NCBI GenBank assembly: GCA_039030075.1
Contig: JBCCEW010000002.1
Span: 310,001 to 374,000 of the forward strand
Reading direction: 5' to 3'
Source: Myxococcota bacterium
GTDB lineage: Bacteria; Myxococcota_A; UBA9160; SMWR01
DNA length: 64,000 nucleotides
Of this stretch, positions 3,612 through 16,710 are shown one piece after another. The first letter of the stretch is position 1. Every line of letters starts with the position of its first letter. Below the pieces are notes generated by a model. The model had not been told where the DNA came from. It made no database searches and saw only the letters and a program-made list of their open reading frames with translations. Made by a program: the position numbers and the translations under genes.

Positions 3612-5018
<1,407 letters not shown>

Positions 5019-6288: not shown

Positions 6289-6531
6289 GTGGTGACCGAT
6301 CGGGTTCCTTCGAGTGGTTCTTGCCGACGCTGCCAGCGCGCGCTGGGGCTCGCCTCGGTGAAGCGCGATGGCGCCTGGTACTGCTGTGTCGAGAGCGCCG
6401 AGGGGCGCACCTGCCTCGCCGACGATCGGGTCTCCGAGGCGCTCGAGGCGCGTCTCGCGCCGGTGCCCCGGCGCCACTTCGCGCCCCGCTTTCCGAAGGA
6501 GCTGCGACGCGAGAGCCGGAAGTTGCGCTAG
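6289..6531 (+). CDS. Small cysteine-rich protein, possible zinc binder
   Basis: Unrecognised 80-aa protein. Cysteines are arranged as CRRC, about 17 residues, CC, then another Cys, and the C-terminal half is Arg/Lys-rich. This resembles a small zinc-ribbon-like fold with a basic tail, perhaps nucleic-acid binding, but that is inference. The start is GTG at 6289 or the adjacent GTG at 6292, preceded by a purine-rich GGGGGGAAA stretch. It is convergent with dnaE2 and its TAG stop shares the palindrome CTAG with the dnaE2 stop, which mildly supports it being a real gene. Confidence 0.55.
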   Translation: MVTDRVPSSGSCRRCQRALGLASVKRDGAWYCCVESAEGRTCLADDRVSEALEARLAPVPRRHFAPRFPKELRRESRKLR

Positions 6532-9500
6532 CGATAGTCGTGGGAGGCGGGCAGGCCTTCGCGCGGAATCAGCGGGCGCAATTCGCGGACCTGCACGTGG
6601 ATCACCCCCTCGACGTTCTGGATCGGTCCCGCGATCTCGACCACGGCAGCGGAATGGAGAGCGCTGCGGAAGCGCTCGAAGTAGCGGGGTGTGAGCACGG
6701 CGTTCGAGGTGCCCGTCTCGTCCTCGAGGGTGAGGAAGCAGAAGCCCTTCGCCGTGCCCGGGCGCTGGCGCACGATGGCGTGGCCCGCGGTCCGCACGAA
6801 GCGACCGTCGGGGATCTCGCGTAGAGCGTCGGCCCGCACGACCCCGCGCCGGTCGAGCTCGGGACGCAAATGGGCGAGCAGGTGATCGCCGGTCGTGATG
6901 CCGCTGCGGGCGTAGTCGGCCAGGGTCTCTTCGAGGGGGCTCATGTCGGGCAGGGGAGAGTCACTCGGGGCGGGATCGATGCGCGCCAGCAGCGGCTCGC
7001 GCGCCAACCCCGAGACCTGCCAGAGGGCCGAGCGACGGGTCGGGGAGCGGGGGTCGATGCTCGCCAGGGCACCGAGCTCCGCCAGCGTCGCGAGTTCGGC
7101 GCGGCTGGGCTCCACCCGCGCCGAGAAGTCGGCGAGGCTCGCGAAGGGACGCGCGGCCCGGGTGGTCTCCAGCCGCTCGGCCGTGGCCTCCTGCAAGCCC
7201 GAGACGCTGCGCAAGCCGAGTCGCACCCGTTCGGCGGTCTCGGGGCCCGGGTCGACGCGGGCCAGCCAGCGGGAATGGGCCACGTCGAGCGGCAACACCG
7301 TCACGCCGTGCCGTTGGGCGTCCTTCACCAGGGTGGCCGCCGAGTAGAAGCCCATCGGCTGCGCGTTGAGCAACCCGGCCAGGAACGCCGCCGGGTGGTG
7401 ACACTTGAGGTAGGACGACGCGTAGGCGATCAGCGCGAAGGAAGCCGCATGGGACTCGGGGAATCCGTAGAGCGCGAACGACGTGATGCCGCGGATGATC
7501 TCTTCCCGTGCGGCTTCGTCGAAGCCGCGCTCGGTCATGCCCGCGATCAGCCGGGCCTCGATGCGTTCCATCTTCTCGACCGAGCGCTTGAAGCCCATCG
7601 CGCGCCGTAGCTCTTCCGCTTCTCCGCCGCTGAAGCCCGCCGCGACCATGGCGATCCGCAAGAGCTGTTCCTGGAAGAGCGGGACGCCCAGGGTGCGTTC
7701 GAGGATCGGCTCGAGCGACGGATGGGCGTAGACCACCGGCTCACGGCCCGCGCGTCGGTTGAGATAGGGGTGGACCATCTTGCCGGTGATCGGGCCAGGG
7801 CGAATGATCGCCACCTCCACCACGAGGTCGTAGAAGCGCTCCGGCTTCATGCGCGGCAGCGTGGCCATCTGGGCGCGGCTCTCGATCTGGAAGGTGCCGA
7901 CGGTGTCGGCGCGCTGGATCATGGCGTAGGTGGCGGGATCGTCCGGAGGCAGCTTCGCGAGGTCGACGTGAATGCCTTGATGGCATTCGAGCTGGACCAG
8001 ACTGTCCTCCAGGGCCTGGAGCATGCCGAGGCCGAGCAGGTCGATCTTGATGATGCCGAGGTCGGCGCAGTCCTCCTTGTCCCACTGGACGACGCGGCGG
8101 TCGACCATGCGCGCGGGTTCGATCGGCACGACGGCATCGAGGCGCCCCGCGGCGATCACGATACCCCCCGAGTGCTGTCCCAGATGGCGCGGCAGGCCGC
8201 GCACCTGACCCACGAGCTCGAGGAGCAGCGCGATGCGCGGGGACTCCGGGTCGACACCCGCTGCGCGCAGGGCCCCCTCGGCGGTCTGGGGGTCGTCCGG
8301 GTGCTCGACGCTCGAGAGCAGCTTCGAGAGACGGTCGATCGCATCGTCCCCCAGCCCCAGCACCTTGCCCATCTCGCGCACCGCCATGCGTGTGCGGTAG
8401 GTGATCACCACTGCCGTCATCGCCGCGCCGTGGCTGCCGTACTTGTCGAAGACGTACTGGATGACCTTCTCGCGCTGGTCGCCCGAGGGCAGGTCGATGT
8501 CGATGTCGGGCCATTCGCCGCGCTCCTCCGACAGGAAACGCTCGAAGAGCAGGCCCATCGCGACCGGGTCGACGGCGGTGATGCCCAGCGCGTAACACAC
8601 GGCGCTGTTGGCCGCCGAGCCGCGTCCCTGGGCGAGCATCGGCGCTTCTCGCGCGAAGCGCGCGATGTCGTGCACGATCAGGAAGTAGCCCGCGAGGTCG
8701 AGTCGCTCGATGATCGCCAGCTCGTGTTCGATCTGGCGCCGGGCGCGCTCGGGGAGCGGGTGGCCATAGCGTTCGCGGGCCCCGTACTCGGTGAGGATCC
8801 GCAGGAACGAACTCTGGGTTTCGCCGGGCGGGATCGGGAACTCGGGAAACCGATAGCCGAGGTTGGCGAGGCCGAACTCACAGCGCTCGGCGATGTCGCG
8901 GGAGGCGCGGACCCACTCGGGGCGATCGGCGAAGCGCTCCACCATCGCCTCGCGGGTGTGGAGATGCTGCTCGGCATTGGGCGCGAGCTTGCGACCGGCC
9001 TGGTCGAGGCGCGTCTTCCAACGCAGACAGGTGAGGGCGTCGGTCAGCCAGCGGCCCGCCGGCGTGGCGTGGCGAACGTCGCCGGTGGCGACGATCGGGA
9101 CACCGAGCGTGGCGGCGAGGTCGGTGGCTCGGCGGTTCGTGCGCTCTTGTTCGCGACAACCGTGTCGGGAGACGTCGACCCAGGTGCGCCCGGGGAAGAG
9201 GGCTCGCACGCGATCGAGCGGAGCCCCTGCGAGCTCCGCGTCGCCGCGCACGAGCACGCACAGGTCCGCAGCGAACTCCTCGCACTCGTCCCAGCTCGCG
9301 AGCGCGAAACCCTTCTCACCGCGGGCGTGCGCCGCGGTGATCAGTTGGGAGAGGTTCCGGTAGCCGCGCGGCGACTCGACGAGGAAGCGCAGCGCCGTGG
9401 AGGGGAGGGTGGTCAGGTCGCGGGGATGCGCGGCCTCGGAGGGTGGCAGGGACGCCACGCGCAGCTCCGCGCCGACGATCGCGCGCACCCCGGCTTCGCA

Positions 9501-9683
9501 GGCGGCCTGGTGGAAGCGTGGGATGCCGTAGAGCCCGTCCCGATCGCCGAGCGCGAGGGCTTCGTGCCCCTGGTCGGCCGCCGCGAGGGCAAGGTCTTCG
9601 GGGTTGGAGGCCGCCTCCAGGAACGAGAAGGCGCTGCGGCAGCGGAGTTCGACGTAATCGCACGCCTGGGGATGGGGGGACAC
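6528..9683 (-). CDS. dnaE2: Error-prone DNA polymerase DnaE2
   Basis: C-family polymerase that carries out translesion synthesis together with ImuA and ImuB in damage-induced mutagenesis. The 1051-aa product has an N-terminal PHP-like domain (YVELRCRSAFSFLEAASNPEDLALAA), the palm acidic motif WPDIDIDLPSGDQREKVIQYV near residue 392, FALYGFPESHAASFALIAYASSYLK and a C-terminal OB-fold segment. The length and the ELRCRSAFSFLEAAS opening distinguish it from replicative DnaE1, which is longer. The GTG at 9683 has no Shine-Dalgarno sequence and lies 9 bases from the end of a promoter element shared with imuA. Its partners imuA-imuB are about 5 kb away rather than adjacent. Confidence 0.95.
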   Translation of the reverse strand: MSPHPQACDYVELRCRSAFSFLEAASNPEDLALAAADQGHEALALGDRDGLYGIPRFHQAACEAGVRAIVGAELRVASLPPSEAAHPRDLTTLPSTALRFLVESPRGYRNLSQLITAAHARGEKGFALASWDECEEFAADLCVLVRGDAELAGAPLDRVRALFPGRTWVDVSRHGCREQERTNRRATDLAATLGVPIVATGDVRHATPAGRWLTDALTCLRWKTRLDQAGRKLAPNAEQHLHTREAMVERFADRPEWVRASRDIAERCEFGLANLGYRFPEFPIPPGETQSSFLRILTEYGARERYGHPLPERARRQIEHELAIIERLDLAGYFLIVHDIARFAREAPMLAQGRGSAANSAVCYALGITAVDPVAMGLLFERFLSEERGEWPDIDIDLPSGDQREKVIQYVFDKYGSHGAAMTAVVITYRTRMAVREMGKVLGLGDDAIDRLSKLLSSVEHPDDPQTAEGALRAAGVDPESPRIALLLELVGQVRGLPRHLGQHSGGIVIAAGRLDAVVPIEPARMVDRRVVQWDKEDCADLGIIKIDLLGLGMLQALEDSLVQLECHQGIHVDLAKLPPDDPATYAMIQRADTVGTFQIESRAQMATLPRMKPERFYDLVVEVAIIRPGPITGKMVHPYLNRRAGREPVVYAHPSLEPILERTLGVPLFQEQLLRIAMVAAGFSGGEAEELRRAMGFKRSVEKMERIEARLIAGMTERGFDEAAREEIIRGITSFALYGFPESHAASFALIAYASSYLKCHHPAAFLAGLLNAQPMGFYSAATLVKDAQRHGVTVLPLDVAHSRWLARVDPGPETAERVRLGLRSVSGLQEATAERLETTRAARPFASLADFSARVEPSRAELATLAELGALASIDPRSPTRRSALWQVSGLAREPLLARIDPAPSDSPLPDMSPLEETLADYARSGITTGDHLLAHLRPELDRRGVVRADALREIPDGRFVRTAGHAIVRQRPGTAKGFCFLTLEDETGTSNAVLTPRYFERFRSALHSAAVVEIAGPIQNVEGVIHVQVRELRPLIPREGLPASHDYR

Positions 9684-9692
9684 GGGACGTCG

Positions 9693-9721
9693 ATTTTCGT
9701 CTTGTTTTCGCTTTTCGTCAA
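9693..9721 (-). promoter_or_regulatory. Predicted SOS-type promoter/operator of dnaE2
   Basis: On the minus strand: TTGACG, 17 bases, GAAAAT, ending 9 bases before the GTG. The spacer and -10 carry the direct repeat CGAAAA-N5-CGAAAA within GCGAAAACAAGACGAAAAT. A near-identical copy precedes imuA (27 of 29 bases match). LexA or another damage regulator as the binder is inference. Confidence 0.7.
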
Positions 9722-9857
9722 TTCGGAAGCGCGGAATTCGGCGGTCGCTGGCGAAGATCCGGCCCAGTCTGGCGTCGAATCCCCGATCCGCGATGAGGAC
9801 GGGCTGCGGATCGTCCCGGCCTGGAGGGGCCCGGGACCTTCGAAGGAGACGCCATCG

Positions 9858-10514
9858 ATGCGTACGACCTCCGCTTCACTCGCCCTCGTGTGTGTCCTCA
9901 TCGCCAGCGGTCCGACCGCGGCCGAGGGCTTCTTCGACCTCTACGCCGGCGGTGCGTTCACCCAGGACGACCGCGAGACCCTGCAGCTCCCCGGGTTCCT
10001 CCCGCGCGCCCGGCTCGAGTTCCGAGACTCCCCGGTCTTCGGAGCGCGCATGGGCGTCTGGGGCGAAGGGCGGCTGCCCTTCCTCGGGGCGGCCATCGAC
10101 GTCTCCGGGTTTCGGCCCGATGGCCAGGATCGCTTCGGGCCCGCCGAGCTCTACGTCGTGCCCGCGTCATTCCTGTTGATGGGACGCGTGCCGCTCTTGC
10201 GCAGCGACGCCTTTCCGATGGGACAAATCCAACCCTACGCCGCCGTCGGCCCGTCGCTGGTCGTGTCCCACCTCGAGATCCCGTACCCGGGGTCGAACTT
10301 CAAGGACCTCGACGCCGATCTCGGACTCGACGTGCGCGGTGGACTCTCGTTCCTGCTCGATCATCGCATCGGCGTGTTCGCCGAGTACCGACTGACCCAC
10401 TTCGAACCCGACTACAGCGATCGCGTGCTCGGCGTGCGCGCGAAGGTGTCGCCGGAGCTCACGACCCACTTCATTCAGACGGGCCTGCGCTTCCAGTTCT
10501 ATCCGTACCACTAG
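9858..10514 (+). CDS. Secreted outer-membrane beta-barrel-like protein
   Basis: 218-aa protein with a cleavable signal peptide (MRTTSASLALVCVLIASGPTAA, cut before EGFFDLYAGG). The mature part is a series of alternating amphipathic strands (FFDLYAGGAFTQDD, ARMGVWGEGRLPFLGAAIDVSGF, IQPYAAVGPSLVVSH, GLDVRGGLSFLLDHRIGVFAEYRLTHF) and ends in an aromatic strand, GLRFQFYPYH, typical of outer-membrane barrels recognised by the BAM machinery. It resembles small 8-strand OmpA/OmpW-like porins; no specific function can be assigned. AAGGAG lies about 10 bases before the ATG. It is convergent with the peptidase gene. Confidence 0.8.
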   Translation: MRTTSASLALVCVLIASGPTAAEGFFDLYAGGAFTQDDRETLQLPGFLPRARLEFRDSPVFGARMGVWGEGRLPFLGAAIDVSGFRPDGQDRFGPAELYVVPASFLLMGRVPLLRSDAFPMGQIQPYAAVGPSLVVSHLEIPYPGSNFKDLDADLGLDVRGGLSFLLDHRIGVFAEYRLTHFEPDYSDRVLGVRAKVSPELTTHFIQTGLRFQFYPYH

Positions 10515-10526
10515 CCCTTTGGGCTA
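10512..10526. terminator. Palindrome spanning both convergent stop codons
   Basis: TAGCCCTTTGGGCTA: perfect 6-bp arms with a TTT loop. The left arm is the plus-strand stop and the right arm the minus-strand stop. It may act as a weak bidirectional terminator; there is no U-run. Confidence 0.35.
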
Positions 10527-12341
10527 GCGCTGGGCGGCCAGTGCCTCGGCCTCCTCGAGGAGTTCTTCGAGGAGGGTGAGGCCGCCGTTCCAGAACGACG
10601 GGTCGGCGATGTCGAGGTTCATCTGCGCGAGCAGCGCTTCCGGCGTGTCCGATCCGCCGGCAGCGAGCAGGGCTTCGTAGCGCGGCACGAAGCCGGCGCC
10701 TTCCTCGTCGTAGCGCCGGAGGAGCGCCAGGACCAGCAGCTCGCCGAAAGCGTACGCGTAGCAATAGAACGGCGAGTGCACGAAGTGGGGGATGTAGAGC
10801 CACCACCACGCGTAGTCGTCCGAGAGCTCGACCGAATCTCCGAACATCGGACGGTTGGCTTCCATCCACAGCGCGTTGATGCGCTCGAGGGCGAGCTCAC
10901 CTTCTTCGCGGCGCGCCGCGTGGAGTGCCTGCTCGAAGCGCGTCATCGCGACCTGGCGGAACACGGTGGCGAAGGCGTCCTCGAGCTTGCCGCACAGCAG
11001 CGCCAGCCGGACGTCGGGGTCGTTCTCTTCGCGCATCAGGCGGCGGAACACGAGCATCTCGCCGAAGACGCTGGCGGTCTCCGCGGTGGTCAGCGGCGTG
11101 TCCTGCTCGAAGAGTCCCTGGCGTGCGGCCAGGCTCTGGTGGACGCCGTGTCCGAGTTCGTGGGCCAGCGTCATCACGTCGCGCAGGTTGCCCGTGTAGT
11201 TGAGCAGCACGTAGGGGTGGACCGAAGGCACCGTCGACGCCGAGAAGGCGCCGCCGCGTTTTCCGGGCCGCAGCTCGGCGTCGATCCAGGACTCGGTGAA
11301 GAAGCGCTCGGCGGTATCGGCCATCGCCGGTGAGAAATCGCGGTAGGCGTCGAGCACCAGCGCTCGCGCATCCTCGAAGCTTCGCTCGGAGGACGCTTCG
11401 GCGAGTGGCGCGTAGCGGTCGTAGTCCGCCAGCGTGTCGAGCCCCAGCAGCTTCGCCTTGAGTTGGTAGTAGCGGGCCACCAGGTCGTAGCGGCCGACGC
11501 AGGCGTCGAGCAGGGCGTGCACGCTCTCGGGCGCGGCTTCGTTCGACAGGTTCCGTGCGGACATGGCGTCCGGATAGCCGCGTCGCCGGTCGTCCTGGGC
11601 CTTGTCCTGGACGAGGGTGTTGAAGATGAAACCGAGGACGCGCGCGTTGTCGCGCAGACCGCTCGTGAGCCCCGCGGCGGCGGCGCGTCGCGTCGCCCGC
11701 TTCGGGTCGTAGAGCAGCGAGAGGGTCTCCTCTTCCGAGAGCTGTCGGGTCTCGCCGTCTATCTCCACCTCGAACTGGAGATCGGCGAGGATCTCGTCGA
11801 AGAGCCGCGAGAATGCCTGGCTCCCGGTGTTCGAGGCCTCTCCGAGGACCCGCTCTTCGGGTTCGCTCAGCACGTAGTCGCTGTAGCGCCGCAGCGATGC
11901 GAGGTGGTGGCGACGGGCGGCCAGCGCCGGGTCGGCAAGGCGCTCGGCCACGAGATCGGCGTCGGCGGCCAACCACTCGAGCTGGAAGAAGAGCAGCTCG
12001 TTCTGGATCTCGGTGCCGCGCTCCTGCACGTGCTGGAGCAGTGCGCCGTGGGCGGGGGTCGTCGTGTCTCCGGCGAACGCGAGCCCGGCGAAGGCGCCGG
12101 CACGGGCGACGGGCTCTTGCAGCTGCTCGAGGGCGTCGAGCGCCTCCACGAGTTCGGCGGCCGAGAGCTGCGCGACGCGTCCGCGGTAGCGTTCGGCGAA
12201 GCCGCGGGCGGCCCCGAGCGCGGTTTCGAGATCGGCTTCGATGCGCGGATCGTCGACCGCGGCGTAGAGATCGGCGAGGTCCCAGCGGACGCCGGCCGCC
12301 GGTCCTCCCGCATTCTGGGCTGCGTCCGCTACCGAGCTCAT
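10524..12341 (-). CDS. M3-family oligoendopeptidase (PepF-like)
   Basis: Zinc metallopeptidase that cleaves oligopeptides, probably in the cytoplasm. The 605-aa protein has the M3 active site TLAHELGHGVHQ (HExxH), followed by the downstream Glu in TTAETASVFGEML, and the substrate-side Tyr/His-rich segment YIPHFVHSPFYCYAYAFGELL. The N-terminal helical region (VRWDLADLYAAVDDPRIEADLETA) is typical of PepF rather than thimet oligopeptidase. The ATG at 12341 is preceded by a perfect AGGAGGTGAC ribosome-binding site, so the longer upstream reading frame is not used. It stands alone between convergent and divergent neighbours. Confidence 0.93.
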   Translation of the reverse strand: MSSVADAAQNAGGPAAGVRWDLADLYAAVDDPRIEADLETALGAARGFAERYRGRVAQLSAAELVEALDALEQLQEPVARAGAFAGLAFAGDTTTPAHGALLQHVQERGTEIQNELLFFQLEWLAADADLVAERLADPALAARRHHLASLRRYSDYVLSEPEERVLGEASNTGSQAFSRLFDEILADLQFEVEIDGETRQLSEEETLSLLYDPKRATRRAAAAGLTSGLRDNARVLGFIFNTLVQDKAQDDRRRGYPDAMSARNLSNEAAPESVHALLDACVGRYDLVARYYQLKAKLLGLDTLADYDRYAPLAEASSERSFEDARALVLDAYRDFSPAMADTAERFFTESWIDAELRPGKRGGAFSASTVPSVHPYVLLNYTGNLRDVMTLAHELGHGVHQSLAARQGLFEQDTPLTTAETASVFGEMLVFRRLMREENDPDVRLALLCGKLEDAFATVFRQVAMTRFEQALHAARREEGELALERINALWMEANRPMFGDSVELSDDYAWWWLYIPHFVHSPFYCYAYAFGELLVLALLRRYDEEGAGFVPRYEALLAAGGSDTPEALLAQMNLDIADPSFWNGGLTLLEELLEEAEALAAQR

Positions 12342-12449
12342 GTCACCTCCTGGGTCGGCCCACCGGGCCCGCGGCGCCGGAGCATAGCGGCGTGCGCCCG
12401 TTCGAGCGTGGGCGAACCCGGCGCGACGCGGGTGTGCCATTCTGCGGAC

Positions 12450-13688
12450 ATGGACCGCGAACGCGTCGTGCTCCACGCCGATATGGATGCCTTCTACGCA
12501 TCCGTCGAGCAGCGCGACCACCCGGAGTTGCGCGGTCGTCCGGTCGCCGTCGGAGGGGACGGCAACCGGGGCGTCGTCTCCGCGGCGAGCTACGAAGCGC
12601 GTCGCTACGGCGTTCATTCGGCGATGCCGAGTGTGGAGGCGAAGCGGCGCTGTCCGGACCTCGTGTTCGTGCGCGGCTCGATGGGACGCTACGCCGCCGA
12701 GTCGAAGCGGATCTTCGAGATCTTCCGGCGCTTCACGCCCGTCGTGCAGGGGCTCTCCCTGGACGAGGCATTCCTCGACCTCACCGGCACCGAGCGCCTG
12801 TGGGGGCCGGCGCGCGCGGTCGGAGAGGCGCTGCGTCAGGCGGTGCGCGAGGAGACCGACCTACCCGTATCGGTGGGGATCGCGCCGGTGAAGATGGTCG
12901 CGAAGATCGCCAGCGATCTCGCGAAGCCCGACGGTTTGCTGGAAGTGGAGCGAGGGGGCGTCGCCGCCTTCCTCGAGCCCCTGCCCGTCCGTCGCATCTG
13001 GGGCGTGGGGCCGGTCGCCGAGCAACGCCTGGTGACGGCGGGCTTTCGCACGATTGGCGATCTCGTGCGCGCGGACCCGACAAGGCTCGAAGCCCAGCTA
13101 GGGGACTGGGGGCTGGCCCTCTCGCGCCTCGGTCGCGGTCGCGATCTCTCCGAGGTCGAGCCCTACCGCGACGCCGTGTCCTACAGCGAGGAGAACACCT
13201 TCGGTGACGACGTCTCGGACCGGTCGGTGCTCGAGGCCGCGCTGATCACCCACGCCGAGTCGGTGGCGCGCCGTCTGCGCCGAGACCGGCTGCGCGCGCG
13301 CACCGTCGTGCTCAAGCTGAAGCTCGCGCGGCGCGTCTCCGCCGGGCCGCGCGGTTACCCGTTGCTCACCCGCCGTGCCACGCTGGCCGAACCCAGCGAC
13401 GATGGGGCCTGCCTGTCCGAGACGGCGACGCGCCTCTTGTCGCGCGCCGCACTCGAGGAGCCCGTGCGTCTGTTGGGCGTGGGCGCAACGAATCTGGTGA
13501 GCGCGGACACGGGACAGCTCGCGCTCTTCGCGTCGCCGCGCAAAGAGCAGCGCGACCGGTTGAACCGCGCGCTCGACGCGATCCAGGATCGCTTCGGCAG
13601 TGGCGCGGTGGTGCGGGGAGACGCCCGACACGCCTCACGCGCGGGACTCTCGCACCAGCAGAAGCGGGGAGCGGACCCGAGCGACTAG
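12450..13688 (+). CDS. dinB: DNA polymerase IV (Y-family)
   Basis: Low-fidelity lesion-bypass polymerase. The 412-aa product begins MDRERVVLHADMDAFYASVE, with Asp11 binding catalytic metal, and has LSLDEAFLDL with the other two carboxylates near residues 104-105. PVSVGIAPVKMVAKIASDLAKPDG, the helix-hairpin-helix segment RIWGVGPVAEQRL and the little-finger domain follow. GQLALF (about residues 355-359) is a likely beta-clamp-binding motif. Unlike dnaE2 and imuA, its upstream region lacks the shared GCGAAAAC...CGAAAAT element, so it may be regulated separately. Its stop overlaps that of the convergent methyltransferase gene in the palindrome CTAG. Confidence 0.96.
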   Translation: MDRERVVLHADMDAFYASVEQRDHPELRGRPVAVGGDGNRGVVSAASYEARRYGVHSAMPSVEAKRRCPDLVFVRGSMGRYAAESKRIFEIFRRFTPVVQGLSLDEAFLDLTGTERLWGPARAVGEALRQAVREETDLPVSVGIAPVKMVAKIASDLAKPDGLLEVERGGVAAFLEPLPVRRIWGVGPVAEQRLVTAGFRTIGDLVRADPTRLEAQLGDWGLALSRLGRGRDLSEVEPYRDAVSYSEENTFGDDVSDRSVLEAALITHAESVARRLRRDRLRARTVVLKLKLARRVSAGPRGYPLLTRRATLAEPSDDGACLSETATRLLSRAALEEPVRLLGVGATNLVSADTGQLALFASPRKEQRDRLNRALDAIQDRFGSGAVVRGDARHASRAGLSHQQKRGADPSD

Positions 13689-14275
13689 GCCGCCTGCTTT
13701 TCCCAGCGGTAGACGCGCATCGGCGGGACGTTGCGTAGCTCCCGCTTGATTGCAGCCCGGCCGAACACCTCGCGGCCCAGGGCGTGGACCCGGTCGCGCA
13801 CCTGGTAGGCGACGAAGGCGCCATCGGGAGCGAGCGCGTCGTGCACGGAGCGCAGGATGTCGCGGCCCAGGGGACGCGTCATGGTCGAGAAGGGAATGCC
13901 GGAGACGACGACGTCCGGGGCGGGAAGCTCGAGCTTCTCGAGGATGCCGCGGATGTCGGTGGCGCTGCCTTCGTGCGCGATCAAGCGCTTGTCGGGCCAG
14001 CGAGAGAGCACTTCCACGAAGCCCGGGTTGATCTCGATGGCGAGCAGGCGCGCTTCGGGTCCCATGGCGCGCAGCAGGGCGCGGGTGGTTCCGCCGGTGC
14101 CGGGACCGAGCTCGACGAGCAGCTTCGCGCTGTCGGCACGCACGGCTTCCGTGATCTTCCGCTCCAGGAACCGCGAACTCGGAATGATGGAGCCCACTTC
14201 CATGGGGCGTTGGAGGAAGCCTCGAAAGAAGGCGAGGCGGTCATCGGGCTGGGGGCGGAGCGGGCTATCCGGCAA
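13685..14275 (-). CDS. SAM-dependent methyltransferase, phospholipid N-methyltransferase-like
   Basis: Class I methyltransferase of about 196 aa. LLVELGPGTGGTTRALL is SAM motif I, LLAIEINPGF the acidic motif II and VVSGIPFSTM the post-motif. The approach sequence FFRGFLQRPMEVGSIIPSSRFLERKI is characteristic of the PmtA-like/rRNA-dimethylase-like group that methylates phosphatidylethanolamine, so a membrane lipid target is likely but unproven. TTG at 14275 was chosen because GGAGG lies about 8 bases upstream; a TTG at 14338 would add 21 residues without a ribosome-binding site. It lies downstream of imuB on the same strand and could be transcribed with it. Confidence 0.75.
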   Translation of the reverse strand: MPDSPLRPQPDDRLAFFRGFLQRPMEVGSIIPSSRFLERKITEAVRADSAKLLVELGPGTGGTTRALLRAMGPEARLLAIEINPGFVEVLSRWPDKRLIAHEGSATDIRGILEKLELPAPDVVVSGIPFSTMTRPLGRDILRSVHDALAPDGAFVAYQVRDRVHALGREVFGRAAIKRELRNVPPMRVYRWEKQAA

Positions 14276-14367
14276 AGGGGGGTCCTCCGAAATGGGGCCA
14301 TCGTCACGTAGGACGCGAGGCGACGAGTGTATAGCCAAAGCTGGGACGGCCAGTCAGCCGAGCCGCT

Positions 14368-15912
14368 TCAGTCGTAGACGGCGTCGATCTGCCACGCGCG
14401 TTCCCGGTGGTCGAAGCGCAGGCGCACGACCCAGCCGTCTTCGGTCTCGACGTCGTAGCTGTCGAAGGCGAAACGTCCTTCGGGGGACCACCAGCCGCCC
14501 GTGGTACGCCAGGGGCCCGCGCATCGCACGACACGCCCGTTGGCGATGCTGCTGCGGATGCGGACGGGGGTGTCGGCCTGTAGCTGCACCTGCACCCGGA
14601 GGGGTGGGCGGAAAGCCCGTAGGGCCAGACCCCCAGTGAACGCGCCAGCGCTCTTCTCGTCGCTTTGCGCCTTAGGGGGTGCGAATTCCTCGAGCGCGTA
14701 GCGATCGGGGTGGTGGGTGTCCGAGGCAACGGGGCGTCCGACCCGGGCTTCTCCACACAGGCTCTGCAGGGCCGCGAGGGTTTCGCCCAGCACGGCGGGA
14801 GCGGGACCCGCAGGCCGAAACAGATCGAGCTGATCCCGGCACAGGGGAAGCCCGCGCGCTTCGAGGGAGACGGACGCGACGGGTGCCGTGGGAGGGCGTG
14901 ATTCGAGGCTCTGATGCACGAGCCGCATCAGGACCCGCAGATCCTGGGTGGGGGCCGCGACACCGATCTGGCGGACGTCGCGACCCTGATCCTCGAACAC
15001 GAGCTCGAGTTGCCAATCGCCGCAGCCGAGATGGCGCGCATCCAGGCGTTCGATCAAACGGGACAGCAATCCCTGCAGGACGAAGAGCAGGGGTTCGAGT
15101 CGTCCGGCGGGGTATTCGAGATCGAGCGCTTCGCGCAGTGCGGTCTCGTGCGCTTCGGGCAGGGGAGGGTCGGTGGCCTTCCCCTGGGCCTCGGCGATCA
15201 GGCGCAAGACAGGCGCGCCGATTCGCGTGGCGAGTCCGCGTCGAGGCAGTCGTAGCAGGTCGCGGATCCGACGTACTCCGAACTGTGTCAACGTTTCGGC
15301 GACGGCGTCTTCGGGGTCGAGCAGGTCGATGGGGAGCGGCGCCAGGAAACTCGTTTCCTGCGCTTCGACCAGACACAGCACGCGCTCGGCCGGCTCCTCG
15401 GAGGACGAAGAGGCGGTCGGCAGCGAGAGCTGACGCGCGGCGAGCAGCGCGACGGTGCGCGACGAAGCCACGGTCACGTCGGCGGCCAGGCCGAGCCTGC
15501 GCGCGGCCGCGGCGAGGGCCGTCGCGAAACCGCGTTCGCTGCGGAACAGGGATCCGGTCCCCGAGGCATCGACGAAGACGACGGCCTCTTCCGAGAAGAA
15601 TCCACTGCCGCGCGGGACGAGTTCGGCGCGGGGAGCGCAGGCGAACGCGGCGTCGAGCAAGGCTTCGCGTGTGGCCTGGTCGAGAGCCGGAGAGGCCACG
15701 CGCAGCTCGAGCGAAGCGCACACGCTCCGGGCGTGGGCCACGCTCATGCCACGTCGCACGCCTTCCTGCGCAGCGGCGCGAGATACCGAGATGAGCTCGG
15801 CGCGCGGTTGGGTTCCCGTCGCCACGGCGAAGCGTGGCTCGATGCGCTCGGGGTGGGCCCGTTGCTCGGCGGCCAGCGGAAGGTCGGCGACGCGCAAGCA
15901 AGCGATGCGCAT
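14368..15912 (-). CDS. imuB: ImuB, catalytically inactive Y-family polymerase homologue
   Basis: 514-aa Y-family-like protein that in known systems acts as the hub joining ImuA and DnaE2 to the sliding clamp. The N-terminus MRIACLRVADLPLAAEQ aligns with the DinB palm but lacks the DMD acidic pair, and FFSEEAVVFVDASG replaces the SxDE motif, so polymerase activity is probably lost, as in other ImuB proteins. QLDLF at about residues 359-363 matches the beta-clamp-binding consensus. The C-terminal part (LRAFRPPLRVQVQLQADTPVRI...RFDHRERAWQIDAVYD) is the ImuB-specific tail. The ATG at 15912 starts 2 bases after the imuA stop, so translation is coupled. Confidence 0.92.
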   Translation of the reverse strand: MRIACLRVADLPLAAEQRAHPERIEPRFAVATGTQPRAELISVSRAAAQEGVRRGMSVAHARSVCASLELRVASPALDQATREALLDAAFACAPRAELVPRGSGFFSEEAVVFVDASGTGSLFRSERGFATALAAAARRLGLAADVTVASSRTVALLAARQLSLPTASSSSEEPAERVLCLVEAQETSFLAPLPIDLLDPEDAVAETLTQFGVRRIRDLLRLPRRGLATRIGAPVLRLIAEAQGKATDPPLPEAHETALREALDLEYPAGRLEPLLFVLQGLLSRLIERLDARHLGCGDWQLELVFEDQGRDVRQIGVAAPTQDLRVLMRLVHQSLESRPPTAPVASVSLEARGLPLCRDQLDLFRPAGPAPAVLGETLAALQSLCGEARVGRPVASDTHHPDRYALEEFAPPKAQSDEKSAGAFTGGLALRAFRPPLRVQVQLQADTPVRIRSSIANGRVVRCAGPWRTTGGWWSPEGRFAFDSYDVETEDGWVVRLRFDHRERAWQIDAVYD

Positions 15913-15914
15913 GT

Positions 15915-16670
15915 TCAGGTGCCGCGGGTCGAGGAGACCGAGAGCAGGACACGGGCGGGACGCGCGGGTGGCCCTCGACGCTGGCGAGACGCCACGGCTT
16001 CGATCTCGAGCCCCTCGAAGAGTGGGCGCGCACCACCGAAGCGGGTGCTCGTGGGCTGCAGGGTAAGGGCGAAGTCGGCGAAGCGTCCTGCGATGCGTTG
16101 CTGCGAGAGCACCAGGAGTGCCGAGCCGCTCGCCGAAGCGGCGCGGGTGAGGCGCTGCCAGGTGGCGGTGGGTTGCTGTTGCCAGAGGTGGGCGGACTCT
16201 CGTTGGGTGTGGGTGGCATCGAGCACCACGAGCGCGAAGCCGCGCGCGCGGAGCAGGCGCTCGCAGCAGCGCAGGGCTTCGCGAGGGCCCGGAGGACGCG
16301 CCCACAGCACGCGCTCGAGTTGCACCCCCAGAGCGTCGGCGGAGGCGGGGTGAAAGGCGTCGCCGGGATCGACGAGCCCGACGAGTTCGCCCGCCCGGGT
16401 CGCGCGGGCCAAGAGCGCCCAGGCCAGCGACGTGCGTCCCGACGACGGGGGACCACTGAGTTCCGCCAGGGAGCCCGGCGCGAGGCCATTGCCGAGCAGG
16501 GCGTCGAAGGCGGGAATTCCCGTGGTGAGAGCGTCGCTCTCGGGCTGGGCCGGAGAGATGTGGCGCGATCCTCGCTCGAGAGCGGGACCGAGATCTCGCA
16601 GCAGACGGGCCAGGCCCGGACGTGCCGGGGCGAGCCCCGCGCGGTGTTGCGCCGGAGCCGAGGGGGACAT
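15915..16670 (-). CDS. imuA: ImuA, RecA-like mutasome accessory protein
   Basis: 251-aa RecA/SulA-related protein of the ImuA-ImuB-DnaE2 translesion system. TGIPAFDALLGNGLAPGSLAELSGPPSSGRTSLAWALLARA contains a P-loop-like GPPSSGRTS near residues 70-80; the later FALVVLDATHT and ALLVLSQQRIAG correspond to Walker B and the following strand. The C-terminal basic tail ends RVLLSVSSTRGT. The ATG at 16670 (MSPSAPAQHRAGL) has no ribosome-binding site and lies 11 bases from a promoter element shared with dnaE2. It heads an operon with imuB and possibly the methyltransferase. Confidence 0.9.
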   Translation of the reverse strand: MSPSAPAQHRAGLAPARPGLARLLRDLGPALERGSRHISPAQPESDALTTGIPAFDALLGNGLAPGSLAELSGPPSSGRTSLAWALLARATRAGELVGLVDPGDAFHPASADALGVQLERVLWARPPGPREALRCCERLLRARGFALVVLDATHTQRESAHLWQQQPTATWQRLTRAASASGSALLVLSQQRIAGRFADFALTLQPTSTRFGGARPLFEGLEIEAVASRQRRGPPARPARVLLSVSSTRGT

Positions 16671-16681
16671 CGGGGATGCTT

Positions 16682-16710
16682 ATTTTCGTCTTGTTTTCGC
16701 CTTTCGGCAA
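16682..16710 (-). promoter_or_regulatory. Predicted SOS-type promoter/operator of imuA-imuB
   Basis: On the minus strand: TTGCCG, 17 bases, GAAAAT, ending 11 bases before the imuA ATG. It contains the same core GCGAAAACAAGACGAAAAT as the dnaE2 promoter; the two 29-base elements differ at only two positions. Confidence 0.7.

Follow-up and report, generated by a model that had tools for sequence, protein, structure and literature searches.

A CGAAA direct repeat at imuA, dnaE2 and lexA, probable LexA operator of a class of Myxococcota

Two promoters sharing one element

Why should two genes lying 7 kb apart, dnaE2 and imuA, carry nearly the same 29 bp just before their start codons, and which protein would read them? 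The question is raised by a stretch of 64,000 nucleotides from a Myxococcota bacterium (GenBank assembly GCA_039030075.1, contig JBCCEW010000002.1, positions 310,001 to 374,000, forward strand), which we call the window. Comparison with related genomes leads us to think that the element is, very probably, the LexA (SOS) operator of this lineage, an operator of the direct-repeat type.

The dnaE2 copy (minus strand, 9721-9693) reads TTGACGAAAAGCGAAAACAAGACGAAAAT, and the imuA copy (minus strand, 16710-16682) TTGCCGAAAGGCGAAAACAAGACGAAAAT. They are identical at 27 of 29 bases, share an identical core of 19 bases, GCGAAAACAAGACGAAAAT, and contain CGAAAA twice with a period of 11 bases, a pattern that can be pared down to CGAAA-N6-CGAAA. 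Exact re-reading agrees with the initial annotation on all these points, including the 9 and 11 bases that separate the elements from the starts. The core is one of the very few repeated 19-mers in the window, one simple-sequence tract excepted. Both genes also have, 7 bp further upstream, a third CGAAA (9717-9713 and 16706-16702) that overlaps the -35 hexamer. The features concerned are the following.

6528-9683, minus strand: dnaE2, error-prone DNA polymerase, 1051 aa (profile NF004225, E=0, above cut-off)
9684-9692, minus strand: gap of 9 nucleotides from -10 to the GTG at 9683, without Shine-Dalgarno sequence; predicted leaderless or near-leaderless start
9693-9721, minus strand: predicted dnaE2 promoter/operator, -35 TTGACG (9721-9716), 17-bp spacer, -10 GAAAAT (9698-9693); layout conserved in relatives
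9695-9710, minus strand: putative LexA-type direct repeat CGAAA-N6-CGAAA at dnaE2, half-sites 9710-9706 and 9699-9695
14368-15912, minus strand: imuB, Y-family polymerase homologue, 514 aa (weak Pol IV matches), directly after imuA
15915-16670, minus strand: imuA, RecA-fold accessory factor, 251 aa (profile NF033429 ImuA, E=4e-15, below the curated cut-off)
16671-16681, minus strand: gap of 11 nucleotides from -10 to the ATG at 16670, without Shine-Dalgarno sequence
16682-16710, minus strand: predicted imuA promoter/operator, -35 TTGCCG (16710-16705), 17-bp spacer, -10 GAAAAT (16687-16682)
16684-16699, minus strand: putative LexA-type direct repeat CGAAA-N6-CGAAA at imuA, half-sites 16699-16695 and 16688-16684

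Presumably imuB is read on the same transcript as imuA. No copy of the operator was found at the dinB-like Pol IV gene that lies between dnaE2 and imuAB (12450-13688, plus strand).

Conservation among relatives

Relatives were taken from about 60 genomes of the order (61 in the genome search), belonging to 11 families. Upstream regions were fetched by homology of the genes, not by the motif, and a match was allowed at most one mismatch to CGAAA-N6-CGAAA. The repeat stands upstream of dnaE2 in 28 of 30 regions, of imuA in 28 of 30 and of lexA in 38 of 41, so that it is present, not absent, before the imuA and dnaE2 orthologues; shuffled windows gave 13 matches in 2020. When gap lengths from 0 to 15 were tried, only a gap of 6 was enriched (28, 28 and 38 regions, against 0-13 for the others), the lesser peaks at 2 and 13 being explained by the extra CGAAA next to the -35. 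As consensus the sites give GCGAA(A)-N5-[AG]-CGAA(A), with both CGAA nearly invariant. Across the 61 genomes exact CGAAAANNNNRCGAAAAT occurs 35 times, against once for the control, and many of these matches lie a few nucleotides before imuA, dnaE2 or lexA. Motif, fixed spacing, targets, conservation and overlap with promoters can thus be read directly in the sequences.

A recent duplication or gene conversion that copied one promoter onto the other in this genome would account for 27 identical bases out of 29 in elements 7 kb apart. Identity, however, stops at the edges of the element, and relatives of 11 families have it at both genes separately, each with its own variation, which makes such an event hardly credible.

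In the genome of origin the core, with up to two mismatches, has 9 matches (0 for the reversed control pattern), and exact CGAAA-N6-CGAAA has 10 (1 for the reversed control); a random scatter of the motif, which the initial annotation had held up as the opposite outcome, is not what is seen. The exact matches include lexA, imuA, dnaE2 and a radical-SAM gene, and another, C42:18443, stands before a regulator-like gene. Four more (C1:232622, C3:150666, C7:96722 and C15:36615), considered as operators, are in or beside unrelated genes and were treated as chance. Elsewhere, at C1:254913-254942 (L004/L116 in genome G000), three half-sites, TCAAAA-N5-CGAAAA-N5-CGAAAA, follow one another at steps of 11 bp; the genes on either side are PEP-CTERM-like and sulfatase-like.

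The repeat on lexA itself

One own-genome match lies directly before lexA (MALTRRQKEVYDF...; 201 aa, G000:C8:1182-1784), whose product is recognised as LexA by TIGR00498 (190 bits, cut-off 111), with winged helix-turn-helix and autoprotease domains. LexA is encoded in 55 of the 61 relatives. The own lexA copy is in opposite orientation, TTGACTTTCGCTTCGGTTTCGCC, and at lexA generally the repeat is reversed (TTGACTTTCG-N6-TTTCG), and in many cases a second copy comes after it in forward orientation, the pair then facing one another. The spacer that follows TTGACT is taken up by the reversed repeat. The short layout found at imuA and dnaE2 is shared by lexA in this genome and its nearest relatives; a leader is present elsewhere. 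Judged from its arrangement, the reversed, often doubled repeat is the putative signature of autoregulation. The initial annotation had expected a damage operator common to the mutasome genes, and the presence of this repeat on lexA itself, together with its order-wide conservation at imuA, dnaE2 and lexA, bears this out.

Co-variation with LexA between lineages

Among the genomes compared the motif is confined to one class of Myxococcota, two genomes from another order of that class having the repeat at lexA. In nine genomes of other classes (L256-L264) a GTTCAG-type sequence lies upstream of lexA, a core not found in this class. The recognition helix of LexA differs in the same way, STNG in the other classes versus SVATVH here: motif and helix change together. 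Gram-positive LexA has a similar TVHxH recognition helix. In a LexA tree the class forms one clade (100/98), which groups with L082, Patescibacteria L087 and Gemmatimonadota (90/83) and is separate from the phylum's remaining LexAs. The lexA genes of these partners carry TTCG-type repeats with an 11-bp period, that of L087 being TTTCGGTTTACTTTCGG; Planctomycetota lexA showed no such repeat. Gemmatimonadota have CCGAA-N6-CCGAAG, with 27 matches versus 10 in the control, and there it precedes lexA, dnaE2, an ImuA-like gene and a radical-SAM gene. That these targets recur independently is the strongest evidence for LexA as the reader of the repeat. In two gemmatimonadotal genomes (L280, L281) CCGAAAGTTATCCGAAG lies, with similar flanks, near an unidentified gene, a possible further SOS target.

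A LexA-independent damage regulator, of the WYL type (PafBC/DriD) or the XRE type (DdrO/DdiA), might be imagined to bind the repeat and co-regulate imuA, dnaE2 and lexA. Such regulators are known, and in Myxococcus xanthus DdiA has an effect on dnaE2 (PMC12288472). We nevertheless find this improbable: the repeat is on lexA in nearly all members and overlaps -35 and -10 as a repressor site does, it co-varies with the recognition helix of a LexA that most relatives encode, and in Gemmatimonadota it again marks lexA and its usual targets. The initial annotation had left the choice between a new LexA-type motif and a LexA-independent one; the former is favoured, and the latter is not needed. It had not anticipated the reversed copy at lexA, the copies at the recA operon and the radical-SAM gene, or a LexA clade that includes Gemmatimonadota and Patescibacteria.

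The recA operon and other targets

Of lexA and recA, both named at the outset as genes that might carry the motif, only the first does so directly (38/41): directly before recA the repeat was found in 0 of 30 regions. recA is the last gene of a pgpA-cinA-thpR-recA cluster. A matrix trained on the lexA, imuA and dnaE2 sites was run over 19 full recA upstream regions and a short one, about 107 kb. Sixteen sites scored above 17 bits, every one of them where the recA operon begins and with the same orientation; the rest of these regions had none above that score. A weaker copy thus heads the operon in 16 of 19 genomes, with one good and one weak half-site, usually just upstream of a TTGAC...TACTCT-like promoter. 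It is plausible, though not established, that this is a weak operator of the recA operon.

Exact CGAAAATAACACGAAAAT, a strong copy, occurs in 8 genomes of one family, inside early pgpA codons. Coding coincidence, considered as its explanation, gave way to a possible operator of the recA operon: the place is kept, flanking synonymous positions vary, and the copy of other families heads the same operon. In family f4 (L025-L032, L217, L219, L222, L226, L232) the repeat within pgpA codons (IFVLFS) has identical or nearly identical nucleotides while its flanks vary; it is possibly an intragenic operator of the recA operon.

The radical-SAM gene, which matches models of the PA0069/Rv2578c family below their cut-offs, has the repeat, reversed, at its start both here and in two relatives. 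It also has an apparent intein at its CxxxCxxC cluster (L123, G000:C23, about 75485-77050; CLAPDTPVLGADFVWRPIGELRVGDELLGFDE..., NF038136 match below cut-off). In one relative the repeat is found at a REP-associated-transposase-like gene, recognised by eye, the site being present there in four copies. In that genome (G006; L018, L037) CGAAAACATAGCGAAAAT lies just before the starts of genes resembling REP-associated tyrosine transposases, as if the family were under SOS control. Finally, unconnected with these targets, window positions 4319-4360 hold a tandem repeat of the hexamer GTGGTC, which codes for a His-Asp-rich stretch in a CobW-like GTPase gene.

Operator, promoter and start codon

Promoter layout was scored over 58 imuA and dnaE2 sites. 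Most have a TTGAC-like -35, separated from a GAAAAT-type hexamer by 17 bp in 38 sites and by 18 bp in 10. The repeat, which covers both spacer and -10, ends in this hexamer (GAAAAT or a near variant); the layout supports the sigma-70-like promoter described in the initial annotation. Start codons come 5-11 nucleotides after the -10 in 52 of the 58 sites, most often 6, and 52 of 58 have no Shine-Dalgarno-like sequence. Because the start codon falls where transcription normally begins, mostly without a Shine-Dalgarno sequence, the two mRNAs should, by strong inference, be leaderless or nearly so, as had been proposed.

Could the element be a mere conserved core promoter, TTGAC/GAAAAT with an A-rich spacer, that no regulator reads? 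The imuA and dnaE2 copies do coincide with -35, spacer and -10. Yet the repeat is reversed at lexA and at the radical-SAM gene, and the copy at the recA operon, usually outside -35 and -10, keeps at least one CG half-site. Both CGAA, moreover, are nearly invariant, even at spacer positions where no reading by sigma-70 is known. A bare promoter is thus very improbable.

How the operator would work

With LexA as reader, the protein would bind CGAAA-N6-CGAAA, whose two half-sites, with their 11-bp period, are on the same side of the helix. On the imuA and dnaE2 promoters it would cover the spacer and -10 of TTGAC-N17-GAAAAT and shut RNA polymerase out. We infer repression by binding and induction by damage: RecA filaments would form on damage, LexA would cleave itself, and ImuA-ImuB and DnaE2 would be made together from mRNAs whose 5' ends would lie at, or a few nucleotides from, the start codon. 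On the lexA promoter the reversed, often doubled repeat would give negative autoregulation; the same repeat would act before the radical-SAM gene, and its weaker form at the head of pgpA-cinA-thpR-recA.

Several observations weigh against a LexA operator. A LexA dimer has two-fold symmetry, and on a direct repeat it has to adopt an asymmetric arrangement. Three lexA, two imuA and two dnaE2 upstream regions have no match at up to one mismatch. The far half-site of the recA-operon copy is degenerate, and the copy usually lies just upstream of the -35, a position at which repression is harder to see. In the genome, some exact matches are inside coding sequences or beside genes that are not of repair.

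A wider view, which we hold with little more confidence than doubt, is that a single LexA clade, present in this Myxococcota class, in Gemmatimonadota and in Patescibacteria, recognises CGAA direct repeats with an 11-bp period and governs, in several phyla, a small regulon centred on mutagenesis (lexA, imuA-imuB, dnaE2, the radical-SAM gene and, weakly, recA). In the Myxococcota class repressor site, -10 and start would be fused, and the mutasome made from leaderless mRNAs.

Place among known LexA boxes

LexA boxes built as direct repeats have been described in Alphaproteobacteria and Balneolaeota and, by citation, in Patescibacteria (PMC3323433, PMC7739468, PMC8565304). The alphaproteobacterial box GTTC-N7-GTTC regulates lexA, recA and imuA-imuB-dnaE2 (PMC3323433, PMC9578287). 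Read on the other strand, GAAC-N7-GAAC, it is a direct repeat of 11-bp period as in this lineage; its half-site, however, is GTTC/GAAC, where ours is CGAA(A). The Gram-positive box CGAAC-N4-GTTCG of Bacillus and Staphylococcus (PMC9578287) has a half-site one base away from CGAAA, but is a palindrome. The patescibacterial motif (Sanchez-Osuna 2017) is cited as a direct-repeat case (PMC7739468, refs 51-53); L087, whose lexA bears TTTCGGTTTACTTTCGG, groups with the present clade, and the published motif may be the same as this one. In Balneolaeota the motif TTACACATATTTTWTACATA is likewise a direct repeat and the regulon likewise holds a radical-SAM protein (PMC7739468), but the sequence is unrelated. 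Within the phylum, Myxococcus xanthus has the box CTRHAMRYBYGTTCAGS, with dnaE2 among LexA-repressed genes (PMC9705874): another sequence, and an imperfect palindrome instead of a direct repeat. The LexAs of other Myxococcota classes fall in a different clade from that of this class.

No report of CGAA-N7-CGAA was found in the LexA literature searched, the published motifs of Patescibacteria and Verrucomicrobia lying outside the comparison. The CGAAA direct repeat probably adds a new operator to a set that counted 17 LexA motifs in 2021 (PMC8565304), and, on the features seen here, operator, promoter and probable leaderless start are fused in it with unusual clarity.

An SOS box for this uncultured class makes its damage regulon predictable, and its many natural variants could be used to ask how LexA, a symmetric dimer, reads a direct repeat. 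Its half-site differs from the Gram-positive one by a single base, so it may represent a transition from palindromic to direct-repeat boxes or the reverse. Finally, operator and predicted leaderless start are fused in a conserved way, which suggests leaderless translation of the mutagenic polymerases as a possible route after damage.

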